Positions 48,595 to 57,056 of a stretch of 57,150 bases of DNA are shown one piece after another. Under the pieces are notes generated by a model. The model worked only from the letters and a program-made list of their open reading frames with translations, did no database searches and had not been told where the DNA came from. The stretch lies in contig CACZAC010000011.1 in assembly GCA_902779125.1 (NCBI GenBank), positions 1-57,150 of the forward strand, written 5' to 3'. Source of the stretch: an uncultured Bacteroidales bacterium (GTDB lineage: Bacteria > Bacteroidota > Bacteroidia > Bacteroidales > Muribaculaceae). The stretch's first letter is position 1, and each line of letters begins with the position of its first letter. Both the position numbers and the translations under genes were made by a program.

Positions 48595-50895
48595 ATGAAA
48601 CAACCAATACTACAACTCACGAGGGCCTTATCTGTGCTCATGTTGCTTACCATCGCCATTACTGCCGGCGCCTACGATTTTGAGGCCGACGGTATTTTCT
48701 ACAACATCAACACCAGCGACCCGACAACGGTCAGTGTGACATTCAAGGGTGCGACCTACAGTGATGCGAAGTCCTACTACGGCGACATCGTCGTTCCCGG
48801 TAACGTCACCCATGATGGAATCACTTATCAGGTGACCGCCATCGGCGACGCGGCTTTCCGCTCATGCGACAGTCTTTACAGCGTCACCCTTTCCAACCCG
48901 ATTAACGAAATCAAATCCATGGCATTCTATCAATGCACAGCACTCGCCAGCATCGACTTGCCTGAAACCTTGACCTCAATTGGTTATAATGCCTTCGGTT
49001 ACGATATAAATTTACGTCATGTAGACATACCCGAGAGTGTCACTGCCCTCTATGGCAGCGCATTTTCCTATAGCGGCATAGAGAGCCTCTACATTCCTCG
49101 CAATGTAACAAATATCTCGGGAAATCTGTGTCTCTCGTGTGACAGCCTAACCAGCATCGTCGTTGATAGCGAGAATACTACCTACTATTCTAGCAATTGT
49201 AATGCCGTCATCCAGAAGTCCAATAATTCCCTGATTATGGGTTGCGCCACTACCGTCATCCCCGAGACCGTTGTCACCATTGGCAACGGTGCCTTTAACA
49301 GGTGCAGCGGGCTGACGAGCATCACCATTCCCGATGCAGTGAAGACCATCAGTGATCACGCCTTTAACCGTTGTGTCAATCTGACTGAACTAAACATTTC
49401 CCCTGCCAGCCAACTTTACACTATCGGGGATAACGCCTTCGAGAACTGCGCAAAACTTACAAGCCTGTACATTCCCCCAACCACAAGATACATGGATTCC
49501 TATTTTATGACAGCATCCTTCAAGGGCTGCTCGGGTTTGACCAGTATCGTGGTTGACCCCCTTAATCCTTACTTCGACTCGCGCGACAACTGCAATGCCA
49601 TCATCGACAGTGAAACAGGCAAATTAATTATCGGCAGCAACAACGGCTTCGTCCCCGACGGCGTCAAATCCATCTGTCCATATGCATTCAATAGATGCGA
49701 AGGAATCACAAAAATCCACATTCCCGACGGGCTCACTTACATCGGTGAGTATGCATTCCAAAGCTGTACCGGCATCACCGAGCTCACTTTTGGCAAATCG
49801 CTCAAGGAAATTGATGATGGAGCCTTCAGCGGCTGCACCGGAATCACATCCATCAAACTGCCCAATTCACTCATTAGAATTAACGACTTCGCTTTCTCGA
49901 ACTGCACTGCACTAACCGACATCGCGTTTGGCAGTTCGCTCAAGATAATCAATGACTATGCCTTCAGTTACTGCTCGGCGTTGACCGAAGTCGTAATTCC
50001 CAAGAATGTGACTTACGTCGGACGTGGCGCTTTTGGCTATCAGCCTGCTCTCACCAGTGTCACCTGCCTGGCCATGACCCCGCCCGTCGCATCTTTAAAT
50101 CCGAGCACCGTGTTCAATTCTTACTCGATTGCTACGCTCTATGTCCATGAGTCGGTTGTCGAAGCCTATCAACAAGCGATTCCCTGGAAATACTTCAGCA
50201 ATATCGTCGGCATCATTCCCAAGTTTGAGGAGGACGGAATCACCTATGAGCTGGTTGGCGGTAAGAGCGTCAGCGTGTCCAGCAAGGAAGATAGCCACTA
50301 TTCCGGAACGCTCAACATCCCCGAAACGGTCCTGCACGAGGGGCGCACCTATGATATCGTCGGCATCGGCGAGAACGCCTTCAACGGCGACACCCAGTTA
50401 GAGCATGTCGTCCTGCCCGGCACCATCTACTCCATCGACTATGCCGCCTTCCAGGGATGCTCCAGCCTTAAGACCATCAACTTCGAACAGGGCCTTGATT
50501 CCATCGCCGCATTGGCATTTGACGGTTGCGACGCCCTCGAGACCATCGACTGCCAGCCTATTGTTCCTCCCATCATGGTCAGCAAGAACTGCTTCACGAT
50601 GGCAGCCTATGACAACGCCATCCTGCGCGTGCCCAACGAGAGCATCCGCCTCTATCATGAGAGTGAACGCTGGAGCGAGTTCTACAACATTGTCAGGATG
50701 GAGAGCATCGAGCAAGGAGATGCCAACGGAGACTTCAAGGTCGACGTTAGCGACATCACCGCGCTCATCGACTATATCACTGGAGCCAGCACCGATAATA
50801 TCAACAGCATGCTGATGGACCTCAACTATGATGGCAATGTGACCATTGCCGATGTGACCATTCTCATCGACACGGTGCTTAATTCCCCCAACTGA
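48595..50895 (+). CDS. BspA-like LRR protein with dockerin-like tail (BspA-5)
   Basis: A 766-residue secreted protein starting MKQPILQLTRALSVLMLLTI. An IFYNINTSDPTTVSVTFKG beta segment precedes LRR_5 repeats of the IPDAVKTISDHAFNRC type. A second such beta segment (ITYELVGGKSVSVSS, near residue 545) begins a short second LRR block. Inserts of the type NPYFDSRDNCNAII recur. The tail is a dockerin-like pair (GDANGDFKVDVSD, MDLNYDGNVTIAD); the first is imperfect because Phe replaces Gly. It is first in an operon with BspA-6, 50 bp downstream. Confidence 0.87.
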   Translation: MKQPILQLTRALSVLMLLTIAITAGAYDFEADGIFYNINTSDPTTVSVTFKGATYSDAKSYYGDIVVPGNVTHDGITYQVTAIGDAAFRSCDSLYSVTLSNPINEIKSMAFYQCTALASIDLPETLTSIGYNAFGYDINLRHVDIPESVTALYGSAFSYSGIESLYIPRNVTNISGNLCLSCDSLTSIVVDSENTTYYSSNCNAVIQKSNNSLIMGCATTVIPETVVTIGNGAFNRCSGLTSITIPDAVKTISDHAFNRCVNLTELNISPASQLYTIGDNAFENCAKLTSLYIPPTTRYMDSYFMTASFKGCSGLTSIVVDPLNPYFDSRDNCNAIIDSETGKLIIGSNNGFVPDGVKSICPYAFNRCEGITKIHIPDGLTYIGEYAFQSCTGITELTFGKSLKEIDDGAFSGCTGITSIKLPNSLIRINDFAFSNCTALTDIAFGSSLKIINDYAFSYCSALTEVVIPKNVTYVGRGAFGYQPALTSVTCLAMTPPVASLNPSTVFNSYSIATLYVHESVVEAYQQAIPWKYFSNIVGIIPKFEEDGITYELVGGKSVSVSSKEDSHYSGTLNIPETVLHEGRTYDIVGIGENAFNGDTQLEHVVLPGTIYSIDYAAFQGCSSLKTINFEQGLDSIAALAFDGCDALETIDCQPIVPPIMVSKNCFTMAAYDNAILRVPNESIRLYHESERWSEFYNIVRMESIEQGDANGDFKVDVSDITALIDYITGASTDNINSMLMDLNYDGNVTIADVTILIDTVLNSPN

Positions 50896-50945
50896 TTTTC
50901 CATTAACTACCGACTGAAATCAACCACTCAAAAAACAATACGATT

Positions 50946-52871
50946 ATGAAACTTCCATATTTTTTCCGCAGATTATTACCGCTGCTCTTGCTGGTCCTGG
51001 GATGCGCCATGACCGCGGCAGCCTACAGTTTTAAGGTTGACGGCATCTTTTACAGTATTTACAGCAGCAGCTCAACGCCACCCGAAGTGAGCGTCACTTA
51101 CGGATCACATAATTATTGGCCCGGAGATTATCGCGACACGATTATTGTACCCGAAACTGTCACCTACGAAGGTGTGACCTATACGGTCACCAGAGTGGCA
51201 TGGGGTGCATTTATGGACTGCGCTTATCTAAAAGCGGTACAGTTGCCTAACACAATTATCAGCATCGCCGACTTTGGTTTCGAAGGCAATCAAAACCTGA
51301 CCAGCGTGAATATCCCCGAAGGAGTCGTTCAAATCGGCAGTAGTTCCTTTGCCAGCAACCCGAAACTCGAAGGCATCGATTTGCCTAGTACACTCACGAC
51401 AATCGGCAGTAGCGCTTTTCGCGGATGCAATTCAATCACTCACATCAATTTACCAGCGTCTGTGACTTCCATTGCAGGGTGGGCTTTCTCCTATTGCAGC
51501 AGTTTGACCAGTATAACGGTGGAGGGCGGCAACACGGTTTATGATTCCCGCAATCACTGTAACGCCATCATCGAGACTGCTACCAACAAATTGATTGCAG
51601 GATGCGAGAACACCATTATACCCAATACTGTGACAATCATCGGTGATAGAGCATTTTCGGGCCGTAACAGCATGACAGAAATGACAATCACCAATGGCGT
51701 GAAGACCATCGAAGAGGAAGCCTTTACAAGCTGCTCATCGCTGCAAAGCATATACATCCCCGCCTCGGTAGATTCCATCGCCCAAGGCGCATTCGGTTAC
51801 TGCCCTGAATTGACTAGTATTACCGTTGACAGCAACAACAACTCCTATGACTCACGCGACAACTGCAATGGCATCATCGAGAAAGAGACCAGGACACTGA
51901 TTATCGGCTGCCGCAATACCATCATCCCGAACACCGTCAGGAAAATCGGCAACTCAGCGTTCTCAAAGTGTACAGCCCTCACATCCCTGGTCATTCCCAA
52001 CTCGGTCATCTCCATCGGCGAAGATGCCTTCAGCGGATGTTCGGCATTGGAACAACTACAGATGTCAAACGCTGTGAGACACATTGGCTTTGGAGCTTTC
52101 TATGGCTGCGAAGTATTGAAATCCATCACGCTTCCCACGACGCTCACGTCGTTAAGCAACTATGCATTCCAGAGTTGTAAAGCTCTGACGACAATCACAA
52201 TACCCAATTCCATCGAGGAGATTCCACAAGGCCTTTTCGATGACTGCTCTGGGCTGACAACAATCAATCTCCCCAATACCCTCAAGAAAATCGGCGGGTA
52301 TGCATTCTATGATTGCGATGGCTTGATAACGCTCAGGATACCGGAAAGTGTCACCATTCTCGACCATTGGGCTTTCGGTCATTGCCATAACCTCAAGTAT
52401 ATGACCATTCCCGACCAGATTACCGAGATTGATGATATATTTATGGGCTGTAATCGTCTCGAGAAAATCACGCTTGGAAGAGGCTTGAGAACCATCAAGG
52501 GGGATTTCTGGGATTGCAACATGGTCAACGAAGTCACCTGCTTGGGCACCATTCCGCCAGTAATGGCCAAGAGTATCAACTCCAAAATCTACGACAACGC
52601 TGTGCTCAGGGTGCCCAACGAGTCTATCGAAGCCTATATGAACACCAACTACTGGTACAAGTTCAAGCACGTCCAGGGCCTGAACCCGATTGCTGACGGC
52701 GACGCCAACTGCGACGGTGTCATCAGCATCTCCGACGTTAGCCTCGTCATCGACCGCCTGTTTAATCCCGATGTAACAGTCATGCCCACCGAGTATAGCG
52801 ACATGAACAAGAACGGACGCATCGATATTGAAGACGTCACCCAAATCATCGATTTGATACTCAGCCACTAA
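50946..52871 (+). CDS. BspA-like LRR protein with dockerin-like tail (BspA-6)
   Basis: A 641-residue secreted protein; the N-terminus MKLPYFFRRLLPLLLLVLGC is a signal peptide. The Cys in VLGCAMTA could be a lipobox, but AAAYS suggests ordinary cleavage. An IFYSIYSSSSTPPEVSVTY segment and about 17 LRR_5 repeats follow, with two DSRDNCNxII-type inserts. The tail is a dockerin-like pair (GDANCDGVISISD, SDMNKNGRIDIED), more divergent than in the first cluster. It is followed by a clear terminator. Confidence 0.87.
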   Translation: MKLPYFFRRLLPLLLLVLGCAMTAAAYSFKVDGIFYSIYSSSSTPPEVSVTYGSHNYWPGDYRDTIIVPETVTYEGVTYTVTRVAWGAFMDCAYLKAVQLPNTIISIADFGFEGNQNLTSVNIPEGVVQIGSSSFASNPKLEGIDLPSTLTTIGSSAFRGCNSITHINLPASVTSIAGWAFSYCSSLTSITVEGGNTVYDSRNHCNAIIETATNKLIAGCENTIIPNTVTIIGDRAFSGRNSMTEMTITNGVKTIEEEAFTSCSSLQSIYIPASVDSIAQGAFGYCPELTSITVDSNNNSYDSRDNCNGIIEKETRTLIIGCRNTIIPNTVRKIGNSAFSKCTALTSLVIPNSVISIGEDAFSGCSALEQLQMSNAVRHIGFGAFYGCEVLKSITLPTTLTSLSNYAFQSCKALTTITIPNSIEEIPQGLFDDCSGLTTINLPNTLKKIGGYAFYDCDGLITLRIPESVTILDHWAFGHCHNLKYMTIPDQITEIDDIFMGCNRLEKITLGRGLRTIKGDFWDCNMVNEVTCLGTIPPVMAKSINSKIYDNAVLRVPNESIEAYMNTNYWYKFKHVQGLNPIADGDANCDGVISISDVSLVIDRLFNPDVTVMPTEYSDMNKNGRIDIEDVTQIIDLILSH

Positions 52872-53037: not shown

Positions 53038-54531
53038 ATGATTACAGGAGAAATCAAGAATAGAATAGACAGCATTTGGGACACCTTCTGGACAGGTGGC
53101 ATTACCAATTCAATCACCATTCTCGAGCAGATGACCTATCTGTTCTTTATGAAGATGCTCGACGATGCTCAGCGCACCAAGGAGGCCAATGCCAACGCTA
53201 TGGGTGTGGCGGTGTCCGAGCCGACCATCGGCTACGGGTCGTGGCACAATCCTGAGACCGACCGCAACGTCCCCTACGAAGACCTGCGGTGGAGCACGTT
53301 CAAGCACTATGATCCCGAGACGATGTACCGCATTGTCAGCAAGGACGTGTTTGTGTTCATCAAGAACCTGAGCAACGGCAAGGAATCGGCCTACAGCCGT
53401 TTCATGGAGAATGCGACCTTCCTGATTCAAAGCCCCCGCACCCTCACCAAGATTGTTGAGGGTATCGACCATCTTGACATGAACAACCGTGACACGATGG
53501 GCGACGTCTATGAGTATGTGCTCAGCAAGATGGCGGCTTCGGGCAACAATGGTCAATTCCGCACACCTCGCCATATCATCCGCATGATGGTCGAAATTAT
53601 GCAGCCCACCTTGAAGGACACCATCTGTGACCCCGCTATGGGCAGTGCGGGCTTCATCGTCGAGAGTGCCAAGTATGTGCGTGAGCATTACAAGTCCGAA
53701 CTGTTGAAGAAGGAAAATGCCCACCACTACAAGAATGAGATGCTGCACGGCTTCGACACCGACTTCACGATGCTGCGTATCGGAGCTATGAACCTGATGC
53801 TGCACGGTGTAGACAATCCTGACATTCAATACCGGGACAGTCTTTCAACTGATAACACAGACGAGAACAGATATACCCTGTGCTTGGCTAATCCTCCTTT
53901 TACAGGAAGCCTCGACAATGAGGCGGTGAGCAAGTCGCTGCTTGCCATCACCAAAACCAAGAAAACCGAGTTGCTGTTCGTTAGTTTGTTCATCCGTATG
54001 CTGCAGATGGGTGGCCGTTGTGCTTCCATCGTTCCTGACGGTGTATTGTTCGGCAACAGTACCGCCCACAAAGCATTAAGAAAAGAACTGATCGACAACC
54101 AACGGCTGCAAGCGGTGATTTCGATGCCATCAGGTGTGTTCCAGCCTTATTCGGGAGTTTCAACCGCTGTTCTTGTGTTCACCAAGACCAATGCAGGCGG
54201 CACCGATAAGGTGTGGTTCTACGACATGAAAGCCGATGGCTACACCCTCGACCAAAAGCGTACCGAGTGCCCTGAGAATGATATTCCCGACGTGATAGCC
54301 CGTTTCAAGAACATGGATGCCGAGGCAACAAGGACACGCAAAGAACAATCCTTCCTCGTCCCCGTCGAGGAAATCCGCGACAACGACTACGACCTCAGCA
54401 TCAACAAGTACAAGGAAGTGGAGCGAATCAAGGTCGAATATGAAGCCCCCGAGGTCATCTTCGGCAAAATAGCCACCCTGCAAGAGGACATCAACAAAGC
54501 CATGTCAGAGTTCAAGGAGAAGTACCTATAG
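53038..54531 (+). CDS. hsdM: Type I restriction-modification methyltransferase subunit (solitary)
   Basis: A 497-residue N6-adenine methyltransferase of the HsdM class. The N-terminal helical domain has WDTFWTGGITNSITILEQMT and FFMKMLDD. The SAM-binding motif DPAMGSAGF is at 198-206 and the catalytic NPPF at 285-288. A functional type I enzyme also needs HsdS for target recognition and HsdR for cleavage. Neither is present downstream; instead an HUH-fusion gene begins 2 bp after the stop. It could be an orphan or partnered in trans. All catalytic motifs look intact. Confidence 0.93.
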   Translation: MITGEIKNRIDSIWDTFWTGGITNSITILEQMTYLFFMKMLDDAQRTKEANANAMGVAVSEPTIGYGSWHNPETDRNVPYEDLRWSTFKHYDPETMYRIVSKDVFVFIKNLSNGKESAYSRFMENATFLIQSPRTLTKIVEGIDHLDMNNRDTMGDVYEYVLSKMAASGNNGQFRTPRHIIRMMVEIMQPTLKDTICDPAMGSAGFIVESAKYVREHYKSELLKKENAHHYKNEMLHGFDTDFTMLRIGAMNLMLHGVDNPDIQYRDSLSTDNTDENRYTLCLANPPFTGSLDNEAVSKSLLAITKTKKTELLFVSLFIRMLQMGGRCASIVPDGVLFGNSTAHKALRKELIDNQRLQAVISMPSGVFQPYSGVSTAVLVFTKTNAGGTDKVWFYDMKADGYTLDQKRTECPENDIPDVIARFKNMDAEATRTRKEQSFLVPVEEIRDNDYDLSINKYKEVERIKVEYEAPEVIFGKIATLQEDINKAMSEFKEKYL

Positions 54532-54533
54532 TA

Positions 54534-55679
54534 ATGACAAATACATCCTATCGCCCCCGCAACCCAGGCCACGACTACTACGGCTGTGGGACCTACCTCA
54601 TCACGCTCGTGGTGAGCGAGCGGTCGCCGTTGCTTGGACGGCTGGGCGAGGATGTCAGGCATCCCCAGGTGGCGCTCTCACCGCTGGGCGAGGTGGTAAA
54701 GCAGACGTGGGAGACCATTCCCGAGAAACAGGCGGCTCACGGCAATCGCGTGGCAGTACACGCCTGCGTGTGCATGCCCGACCATTTCCACGGCGTGCTC
54801 GAGGTGTTGGAGCCCATGCAGTGGAGCCTGGGCGACATCATCCAGGCCTTCAAGGCTGCGTGCACCAGCCACTGGCAGCAACAACAGGGGCAGGGTCCTT
54901 CTATCAATCGCCCGATATCGGTCGCTTGCAGCAGCCCGCAAGCGCCCGCGTGGCTGCGCGAGAAAGCCCGCCTCCACGACAGCGAGGGTGCCCTCATCCG
55001 CGCCATGTCCAAGCGGCAGCGCCAGGAGTACTACGCGCTGGTGGGCAGGGAGCAGCGACCGCTGTTCGACGACAATTACGACGACACGGTGTGCCTCGAC
55101 CAGCGGCACCGCCAGGCCATGATTGCCTACGTTCACGACAACCCGCGTCGTGCCATTATGCGCCGTGCCTTGCCCCGGTTGATGCAGCGCAGCCTCCATG
55201 TCCAGATTGGAGGGCGCGACTATGGCATCTTCGGCAATCTGTTCCTGCTGCGTTGGCCCAGCAAGGTGCAGGTGCAATGCCACCGGCGGCATCCCGTCAC
55301 CGGGGAGCCCTACGAGACCACGCCCGACTATGCCCGCCAGCACCGGCAATGGGTAGATGCCATCATCGGTGGTGCCACCGCGATTGTCACCCCAGGCATC
55401 TCACGTGGCGAACTGATGATGAAAAACGAATGCCTCAAGAACGGCTATCCCCTCATCCATATCCAGAAGGAACCCATCACTGCCTATTGGAAGCCCGAGC
55501 GGATGCGGTTTGAGGCCTGCGCTAACGGCTCACTGCTCATTCTCGCGCCATGGGGACTCGATGCCATGGCAGCGGTCAACGGCGTGCCTGCCGACACCGA
55601 CTACAGCCGTTTCCACAACATGAACCATCTCGCTGCCGAGATTTGCGCCTTTAACGGCAACGCCACCATCCTGAGATAA
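54534..55679 (+). CDS. REP-associated-type Y1 transposase (HUH) fused to a Rossmann/DprA-like domain
   Basis: A 381-residue protein starting 2 bp after hsdM. Residues about 1-205 form a Y1/TnpA_REP (RAYT) domain: YGCGTYLITLVV, the HUH motif HFH at 84-86 in MPDHFHGVLEV, NYDDTV with the likely catalytic Tyr182, and AYVHDNPRRA at 198-207. The C-terminal part, about 225-381, has RFGN-like FGNLFLLRWPSK, ATAIVTPGISRGELMMK and EACANGSLLILAPW. It looks like a Rossmann fold of the DprA/LOG kind. RAYTs act on REP hairpins rather than as ordinary IS transposases. Translational coupling with hsdM is likely. Confidence 0.8.
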   Translation: MTNTSYRPRNPGHDYYGCGTYLITLVVSERSPLLGRLGEDVRHPQVALSPLGEVVKQTWETIPEKQAAHGNRVAVHACVCMPDHFHGVLEVLEPMQWSLGDIIQAFKAACTSHWQQQQGQGPSINRPISVACSSPQAPAWLREKARLHDSEGALIRAMSKRQRQEYYALVGREQRPLFDDNYDDTVCLDQRHRQAMIAYVHDNPRRAIMRRALPRLMQRSLHVQIGGRDYGIFGNLFLLRWPSKVQVQCHRRHPVTGEPYETTPDYARQHRQWVDAIIGGATAIVTPGISRGELMMKNECLKNGYPLIHIQKEPITAYWKPERMRFEACANGSLLILAPWGLDAMAAVNGVPADTDYSRFHNMNHLAAEICAFNGNATILR

Positions 55680-55699: not shown

Positions 55700-55729
55700 C
55701 AAATAACTACCGATAACGGTAGTTATTTG
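55700..55729 (+). terminator. Perfect palindrome after the HUH-fusion gene (terminator or REP-like site)
   Basis: CAAATAACTACCG (55700-55712) and CGGTAGTTATTTG (55717-55729) form a 13-bp perfect stem with loop ATAA, 21 bp after the stop. The poor T tract (GTATTTCATC) makes a plain terminator less certain. Because the neighbouring enzyme belongs to a family that recognises hairpins, it could also be its target. Confidence 0.6.
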
Positions 55730-56931: not shown

Positions 56932-57056
56932 TATATATAAATTGAACGAACGGATGAACGGATGAAATTGTGTCATCGATAGTTTTGACACAACAATTTC
57001 AATCCTGTCATTAAACTATACAATACCTACCCTTTCATCCGTTCATCCGTTCGTTC
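56910..57056. repeat. 24-bp perfect inverted repeat with nested and iterated motifs (origin-like)
   Basis: 56944-56967 and 57033-57056 are perfect reverse complements of 24 bp. Each arm itself holds two copies of GAACGGAT. A related motif, TCCGTTCGTCCG, occurs in the last codons of the RepA-like gene (about 56912-56925). Inside lie TTGTGTCA (56968-56975) and TGACACAA (56986-56993), a nested 8-bp inverted repeat. AT-rich sequence follows. The layout fits iterons plus an AT-rich zone next to a replication ATPase. A terminator or attachment site is the alternative. Confidence 0.75.

Follow-up and report, generated by a model that had tools for sequence, protein, structure and literature searches.

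A RAYT-DprA fusion gene as an optional occupant of the hsdM/hsdS junction in type I restriction loci of Bacteroidales

Y1 enzymes cut single strands of DNA beside hairpins, and DprA binds single strands and passes them to RecA. RAYTs are common transposases that have become tamed, and what they do in the cell is largely open; a RAYT that is fused to a DprA-like domain and recurs in restriction operons offers a concrete, testable setting for that role. Their superfamily includes subclasses with large C-terminal domains (PMC6006769, main text, from which the words DprA and restriction are absent). DprA-like proteins are described as parts of immune systems: paired with a phosphoribosyltransferase (PRTase) they form a phage-defence system, and DprA homologs are the antitoxins of shosTA, according to the relevant passages of PMC9122126. 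Extra genes also occur inside type I restriction-modification (RM) loci. As presented in the pertinent sections of PMC12707154, prrC lies within ecoprrI and is activated upon inhibition of the RM enzyme, a precedent for a gene inside a type I locus that can be an RM guard; rloA and rloB lie inside the Campylobacter hsd locus, and the corresponding section of PMC2928727 infers no function for them. Here we describe a gene for a RAYT-like nuclease fused to a DprA-like domain (RAYT-DprA, or RAYT for short) directly behind the type I methyltransferase gene hsdM, on a contig of an uncultured Muribaculaceae bacterium of the order Bacteroidales (CACZAC010000011.1, our C11). The window, that is, the whole stretch analysed, is this entire contig of 57,150 bases. 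We tentatively read RAYT-DprA, at a probability of roughly 45%, as an optional accessory gene in a cargo slot of the type I operon, encoding a two-domain enzyme of single-stranded DNA (ssDNA). That reading draws on the observed gene order, conserved catalytic residues, purifying selection and recurrence of the slot, together with two folds obtained by modelling.

The junction behind hsdM was compared among 101 genomes of the same genus, searched for hsdM at E-values up to 1e-60 and for RAYT at E-values up to 1e-5. The window-type hsdM was found in 28 of them; four loci were cut by contig ends (G031, G058, G062, G074) and 24 were readable, that of G014 via two contigs. Directly behind hsdM stood RAYT in seven genomes, a Fic gene in four (G014, G039, G071, G086), a T5orf172 gene in one (G069), a YhcG nuclease gene in one (G049), and hsdS itself in 11. 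Because relatives fill the same junction with Fic, YhcG-nuclease or T5orf172 genes, the hsdM/hsdS junction is a cargo slot. Seen from the other side, close orthologs of RAYT (at least 75% identity) occupied 20 loci in the genus, one of them partial (G008). Eight lay behind hsdM, with hsdS next in seven and inferred in the window genome; two lay upstream of hsdM (G059, and G047 with an ATPase gene between); one lay just past hsdR (G030); two stood beside RM scars (in G055 only the ends of hsdM, in G060 the first 25 residues or so of hsdS); and seven had no hsd match within 2.5 kb.

The same gene order in relatives bears on what follows RAYT. The first-pass annotation of this DNA had placed the fusion in the position normally held by hsdS. 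In five relatives the order was hsdM-RAYT-ATPase-hsdS-hsdR, with an hsdR of about 1104 amino acids (aa), and in a sixth (G068) it was hsdM-RAYT-hsdS-hsdR without the ATPase, so that all six genus relatives having the window-type hsdM-RAYT pair carry hsdS and hsdR downstream. The order hsdM-RAYT-hsdS-hsdR was also present in G064 beside a different hsdM (28% identity), and hsdS and hsdR followed at five further loci (L131, L136, L140, L141, L194), with hsdR in pieces at L140. Compared with locus L082, the window contig stops about 0.3 kb before the expected start of hsdS. Since the same order in relatives continues into hsdS and hsdR, the absence of hsdS from the window is most likely due solely to the contig end. 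For the relatives, the replacement of hsdS by RAYT is rejected, as their hsdS persists further downstream. It is thus highly improbable that HsdM of the window genome works with RAYT-DprA in place of HsdS for DNA recognition, even though RAYT follows hsdM there with no hsdS in view and the assembly, which is 90.67% complete, holds neither a close hsdR nor an hsdS scoring like those of the relatives. The best match to the relatives' hsdR family was only 26% identical, and the hsdS genes of the window genome, with six Methylase_S stretches, reached at most 99 bits on the relatives' profile, as compared to 287-503 bits for intact relatives; a complete type I operon in the window genome is therefore unproven. 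More generally, a gene that immediately follows hsdM in a draft genome may represent cargo and not a substitute for hsdS. Elsewhere in the window genome (contig 13, locus L014), an hsdS with just 31% identity to the family of the relatives adjoins a Bro-N/Fic-like open reading frame (ORF).

The coordinates and spacing that had been read from the letters alone were confirmed from the ORFs. The hsdM ORF carries the motifs DPAMGSAGF and NPPF and ends with TAG at 54529-54531, two bases follow, and the 381-aa ORF, with TPGISRGE and LLILAPW, opens with ATG at 54534. HsdM matched the Pfam families N6_Mtase (E 1.4e-67) and HsdM_N (E 4.2e-13) and the PADLOC type I methyltransferase model (E 5.4e-180). 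Pairwise ratios of nonsynonymous to synonymous substitution rates (dN/dS) between the window RAYT and 16 relatives were 0.11-0.21 for the whole protein, 0.11-0.21 for the first half and 0.08-0.23 for the second; on account of the whole-protein values, the 381-aa ORF is a real gene under purifying selection.

The catalytic half bears out the earlier call of a Y1/RAYT domain. An AlphaFold2 model of the whole protein, built on a 60-sequence alignment, had a mean predicted local distance difference test (pLDDT) of 85 and a predicted template modelling score (pTM) of 0.62, and residues 1-12 were the sole stretch with pLDDT below 50. Foldseek matched its first half to ISDra2 TnpA (2xm3, E 1.9e-4) and to TnpA_REP on its hairpin (4er8, E 3.2e-4). 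Across 121 aligned sequences of the family (60 orthologs and 61 distant paralogs), H84, H86, Y199 and N203 had a conservation of 1.00 to two decimals; Y199 is the candidate nucleophile as judged from its motif, and the HUH/Tyr pattern agrees with the RAYT motif table in PMC6006769. Sequence profiles were less generous: NCBIfam REP_Tyr_transpos gave a weak match (E 5.5e-10, 39.3 bits against a curated cut-off of 80), and Pfam Y1_Tnp gave 14.6 bits, under its cut-off of 23. The protein is accordingly described as RAYT-like by predicted fold and by motif, and as lying outside the NCBIfam family. PHROGs returned no match at E-values up to 0.01, a BFVD fold search with the model nothing at E below 0.001, and a PDB sequence search three matches to unrelated proteins (best E 0.27); no RAYT relatives were found in viral contigs, phage records or plasmids. 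We rejected a current insertion sequence of the IS200/IS605 type, as near-identical copies were not seen, nor, by eye in 21 downstream flanks, fixed ends. Other RAYT copies in the same genome were 34-48% identical per segment.

The C-terminal half was correctly called Rossmann/DprA-like at the level of fold, and the disorder that the first-pass annotation had named as refuting its proposal was not seen: modelled in isolation, the domain had a pLDDT of 92.2 and a pTM of 0.88. With the whole model, Foldseek found ShosA (8zva, E 4.3e-4, probability 1.00) and DprA (4ljk, E 0.023, probability 0.98-1.00). With the isolated domain the top matches were ShosA (8zva, E 0.0029, probability 1.00), MilB (probability 0.97) and DprA (3uqz, probability 0.98-0.99), at TM-scores of 0.52-0.55 by query length and with no E-value at or below 0.001. 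An hhalign comparison with 29 DprA proteins of related genomes was collinear but weak (E 0.0045, probability 7.7%; controls E 0.18-0.95), and Pfam DNA_processg_A had no match in the 381-aa protein. Eight residues of this half (G234, N235, G280, E293, P321, C329, L335 and N364) had a conservation of 1.00 in the 121-member alignment. The domain is thus predicted to be ordered, with ShosA and DprA as its nearest solved folds.

Beyond the genus, we examined the best 80 of 129 relatives of RAYT (58-92% identity in the best segment), all from Bacteroidales metagenome-assembled genomes, many titled from ruminants; about 17 of the 80 loci are genus genomes counted again. RM neighbours were sought with hsdM, hsdS and hsdR profiles and sequences, and other RM or defence types only in selected neighbours, so that some may be missed. 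An intact RM gene lay within 2.5 kb at 16/80 loci. Thirteen had type I hsdM, hsdS or hsdR, and at ten of these RAYT stood between hsdM and hsdS; two lay upstream of another type I M+S pair (L191, and L162 at a distance of 1.1 kb with an HSDR_N_2 gene between); and at one (L171) RAYT began 12 bp behind a type IIG enzyme. One more locus (L122) had an hsdM scar, and 63/80 had neither RM gene nor scar within 2.5 kb. Distant paralogs of the same two-domain build, searched with the same profiles and queries, had an RM neighbour in 0/64 cases (60 loci from the genus and four from the window genome; both 2.5-kb flanks were complete at 46/64 paralog and 62/80 ortholog loci). Set against the 0/64 of the paralogs, Fisher's test gave p 5.8e-5 for 16/80 and 9e-9 for 11/20, values that are not true probabilities since the rows are related. 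Given 16/80 ortholog as against 0/64 distant-paralog loci, an association of RAYT with RM by chance is unlikely.

The pairing with hsdM was also sought across the order, in 393 genomes with hsdM at E-values up to 1e-100, which yielded 18 hsdM loci besides that of the window. At one of them (L322), in a different family of the order, hsdM and RAYT overlap by 1 nt and hsdS starts right after; its RAYT shares no more than 74% identity with any of the 84 sequences of our RAYT tree (the 80 relatives plus the window, L087, L095 and L101; quick method). Another small gene held the slot in L321 and L324, and the gene behind hsdM in L326, L327 and L336 matched none of the profiles used. Five separate places on the tree have RAYT in the hsdM/hsdS slot, to which L322 adds a further family; in one instance the adjoining hsdM is very different. 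When the label was any RM link or scar, the tree required 11 changes, at least 8 of them forced by starred branches, and 0/500 shuffles were as low. A family search found close RAYT orthologs in 19/397 genomes, all of the same genus. The hsdM-RAYT pairing is recurrent, yet it is a minority state, and because most of the homologs examined sit in other contexts, the association is optional rather than that of an obligate system.

Several observations weigh against an accessory of the type I operon. The expectation that the pairing would be conserved in distant genomes held only in part: it recurs outside the genus, L322 included, but 64/80 orthologs have no intact RM gene within 2.5 kb, and only 1/18 other hsdM loci of the order has RAYT behind it. 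With 64/64 paralogs also away from RM genes, the function of RAYT does not need RM. The slot label by itself is barely clustered on the tree (10 changes, at least 7 forced, gains and losses being pooled and indistinguishable; 54/500 shuffles were as low), as expected if RAYT copies come and go. Within the genus RAYT persists where hsd genes are lost, as the scars in G055 and G060 show, and in G061 RAYT and the ATPase stand alone with the hsd genes gone. Its three positions relative to the hsd genes (in the slot, before hsdM, after hsdR) are as compatible with a tolerated neighbour as with a partner. The protein matched no PADLOC model at E-values up to 0.001, and to these points is added the unproven operon of the window genome itself.

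The main rival takes these points at face value. RAYT-DprA would be a domesticated gene that serves a housekeeping or selfish end of its own and comes to lie behind many genes, and RM operons would retain it neutrally, since the hsdM/hsdS junction accommodates inserts and RM loci undergo rapid turnover. Its homologs occur in 79/101 genus genomes, and four of the five RAYT-family loci in the window genome adjoin housekeeping-looking genes. Other ortholog sites are recurrent too: behind a GH92 glycosidase gene (7 loci), deoxyhypusine synthase (5), RHS-repeat genes (4) and transketolase (3), as identified by Pfam on one member each. RAYT is kept after RM loss, and selection on RM-less copies (L091-L096, L099; dN/dS 0.11-0.21 against the window copy) resembles that on RM-linked copies (0.11-0.17). 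Such a passenger is a real possibility, though we consider it somewhat doubtful. None of the 64 distant paralogs has an hsd neighbour, so the association is particular to the ortholog group, and RAYT recurs beside clearly different adenine methyltransferase systems: the window-type hsdM, the G064 type, the M+S pairs of L162 and L191, and the type IIG enzyme of L171.

The history of the locus was reconstructed from divergence and from rearrangements. Nearly identical and tree-mixed HsdM proteins (2/25 inner branches starred) belong to operons with RAYT behind hsdM (L019, L082), upstream of it (L089) or absent (L102); because operons with nearly identical HsdM lack it, RAYT is not needed for the RM operon as such. 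An HsdM identity of 99% had suggested that RAYT was an old resident and hsdM a recent arrival. This was rejected: synonymous divergence at four-fold sites is similar for RAYT, hsdM and hsdR (mostly 0.2-0.4), so that within the genus RAYT is neither much older nor younger than the operon, and its protein simply evolves faster. Where RAYT follows the GH92 glycosidase gene, the gap is 8 bp in 6/7 genomes (in L186, the remaining one, it varies with the choice of start codon), whereas the genes behind RAYT differ: a type I M+S pair (L162, L191), the helicase, Schlafen-AlbA and type IIG-like set described below (L178, L181, L186), or other genes (L172, L180). Because RAYT is fixed there amid changing genes, one might suppose that the HUH and DprA-like domains make a hot spot that captures incoming ssDNA, alongside which RM and defence genes are gained and lost. 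The RM scars beside RAYT fit this idea, as does the contrast between G047, with RAYT-ATPase upstream of hsdM-hsdS-hsdR, and its close relative G015, with hsdM-RAYT-ATPase-hsdS-hsdR. We nevertheless regard it as improbable. No common DNA ends were apparent by eye in 21 downstream flanks, which were alike only within one locus kind (the upstream flanks viewed were those with hsdM ahead of RAYT), the single strong hairpin has one copy, and variable sites are common without RAYT, the comparison covering RAYT sites only.

Returning to RAYT-DprA as an accessory in the cargo slot, a mechanism can be sketched. The protein would be translated with HsdM from the operon messenger, given the 2-bp gap here and start/stop overlap elsewhere. 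Its nuclease half would nick hairpin-forming ssDNA, its DprA-like half would bind the single strand, and the substrate may be ssDNA arising during restriction, phage replication or DNA uptake. A role in defence is plausible but unproven, and the modification-linked one that the first-pass annotation also suggested stays at the level of inference. The more specific proposal of a second-line effector made along with HsdM, whose DprA-like domain would sense or gather ssDNA from restriction or from phage or plasmid entry while the HUH half nicks its hairpins, strikes us as unlikely; were it true, type I (and type IIG) loci would have recruited a transposase to serve as a nuclease of immunity.

Coordinates of the features discussed, with those that follow RAYT, are collected in Table 1.

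Table 1. Features at the hsdM end of the window
Feature	Coordinates	Strand	Evidence
hsdM, type I adenine-N6 DNA methyltransferase subunit, 497 aa	53038..54531	+	ORF, Pfam, PADLOC
RAYT-DprA fusion protein, 381 aa, start 2 bp past hsdM stop	54534..55679	+	ORF, NCBIfam, AlphaFold2 model, Foldseek, dN/dS
Predicted Y1/HUH nuclease half, about residues 1-218	54534..55187	+	fold match to 2xm3 and 4er8, conserved residues, motif pattern
HUH motif H84-F85-H86	codons 54783-54791	+	alignment, motif
Candidate catalytic Tyr199 in YVHDNP	codon 55128-55130	+	alignment, motif
Predicted DprA-like Rossmann domain, residues 220-381	55191..55676	+	isolated model, Foldseek
Perfect hairpin, two 13-nt arms and 4-nt loop, 20 nt past RAYT stop; terminator-like or RAYT-related	55700..55729	+	
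AAA_25 / DnaB-RepA-like ATPase, 361 aa	55846..56931	+	Pfam among evidence
24-nt perfect inverted repeat, arms 56944-56967 and 57033-57056	56944..57056	.	
Small ORF start, cut by contig end	57098..57150	+	at least 75 aa in relatives

The hairpin behind RAYT (z -4.7) contains GTAG, has one copy in the genome, and differs in its loop among relatives; terminator-like sites as a class were no commoner in the window than in shuffles. Its single copy speaks against a dispersed repetitive extragenic palindrome, no general search for such elements having been made. The ATPase follows RAYT at 7/11 RM-linked copies in the genus. A general two-gene module was rejected, since of 23 other ATPase homologs, 20 were examined and one lay near RAYT. 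The inverted repeat is perfect at 8/9 ATPase loci, 6 of those 8 carrying the same substitution on both arms, and looks like a regulatory or replication-type site. Two variants, matched on both arms, were seen among the eight relatives' loci, and in the window the repeat, between the ATPase and the small ORF, holds a nested TTGTGTCA/TGACACAA pair. The small ORF had no Pfam match; in relatives, hsdS and hsdR come after it.

Other observations concern the surroundings of RAYT and of the slot. A Bro-N/Fic protein holds the hsdM/hsdS slot at L103, L105, L106 and L117 (PADLOC PDC-S04, tested on L105), and RhuM lies between hsdS and hsdR at L113 and L117. Split genes, hsdM in L098 (G078) and L113 (G049) and hsdS in L083 (G057), suggest RM decay or switching; G078 further carries, upstream of hsdM, a RAYT with an internal deletion, and the DNA behind RAYT in G084 resembles, by eye, the RAYT-hsdS spacer of G068. 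At the GH92 site of L178 (10338-19161), an HKD and Snf2 helicase, a Schlafen-AlbA_2/HATPase_c_4 protein and a type IIG-like enzyme stand behind RAYT, a DISARM-like set that clustering also placed in L181 and L186. In a single case (L147, 7813-9621) RAYT lies 6 bp ahead of a phosphoribosyltransferase-domain gene, which recalls the DprA-like and PRTase defence pairs. Upstream of hsdM in the window, two similar-looking leucine-rich-repeat ORFs stand in tandem (48595-52871); Pfam, applied to the second alone, assigned LRR_5 and Dockerin_1.

In the open-access literature, searched by titles and abstract openings, no paper linked RAYTs to hsd genes or to a DprA-like domain. As far as searched, RAYT-DprA, as an accessory gene embedded in type I RM, would add a protein type not previously reported from such loci. 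The known systems it most resembles each differ from it. TnpA_REP and other RAYTs share the Y1/HUH fold, the DHxH and YxxxNP motifs, the low copy number and the tamed look, but the 381-aa protein adds a DprA-like C-terminal domain, its flanking hairpin is a single copy, and its score falls under the NCBIfam cut-off. DprA/Smf and the ShosA-type antitoxins are alike in the predicted fold of the C-terminal domain, which here is fused to an HUH nuclease and has no PRTase partner at the window locus. The Fic (PADLOC PDC-S04), YhcG and T5orf172 genes hold the same slot in relatives of the same hsdM, but encode proteins unrelated to RAYT. By analogy, the best reading of its placement is that RAYT sits in the operon as the prrC and rlo genes do, as an extra gene inside an hsd locus; a guard role like that of PrrC may be imagined, with an enzyme of the ssDNA type in place of an anticodon nuclease.

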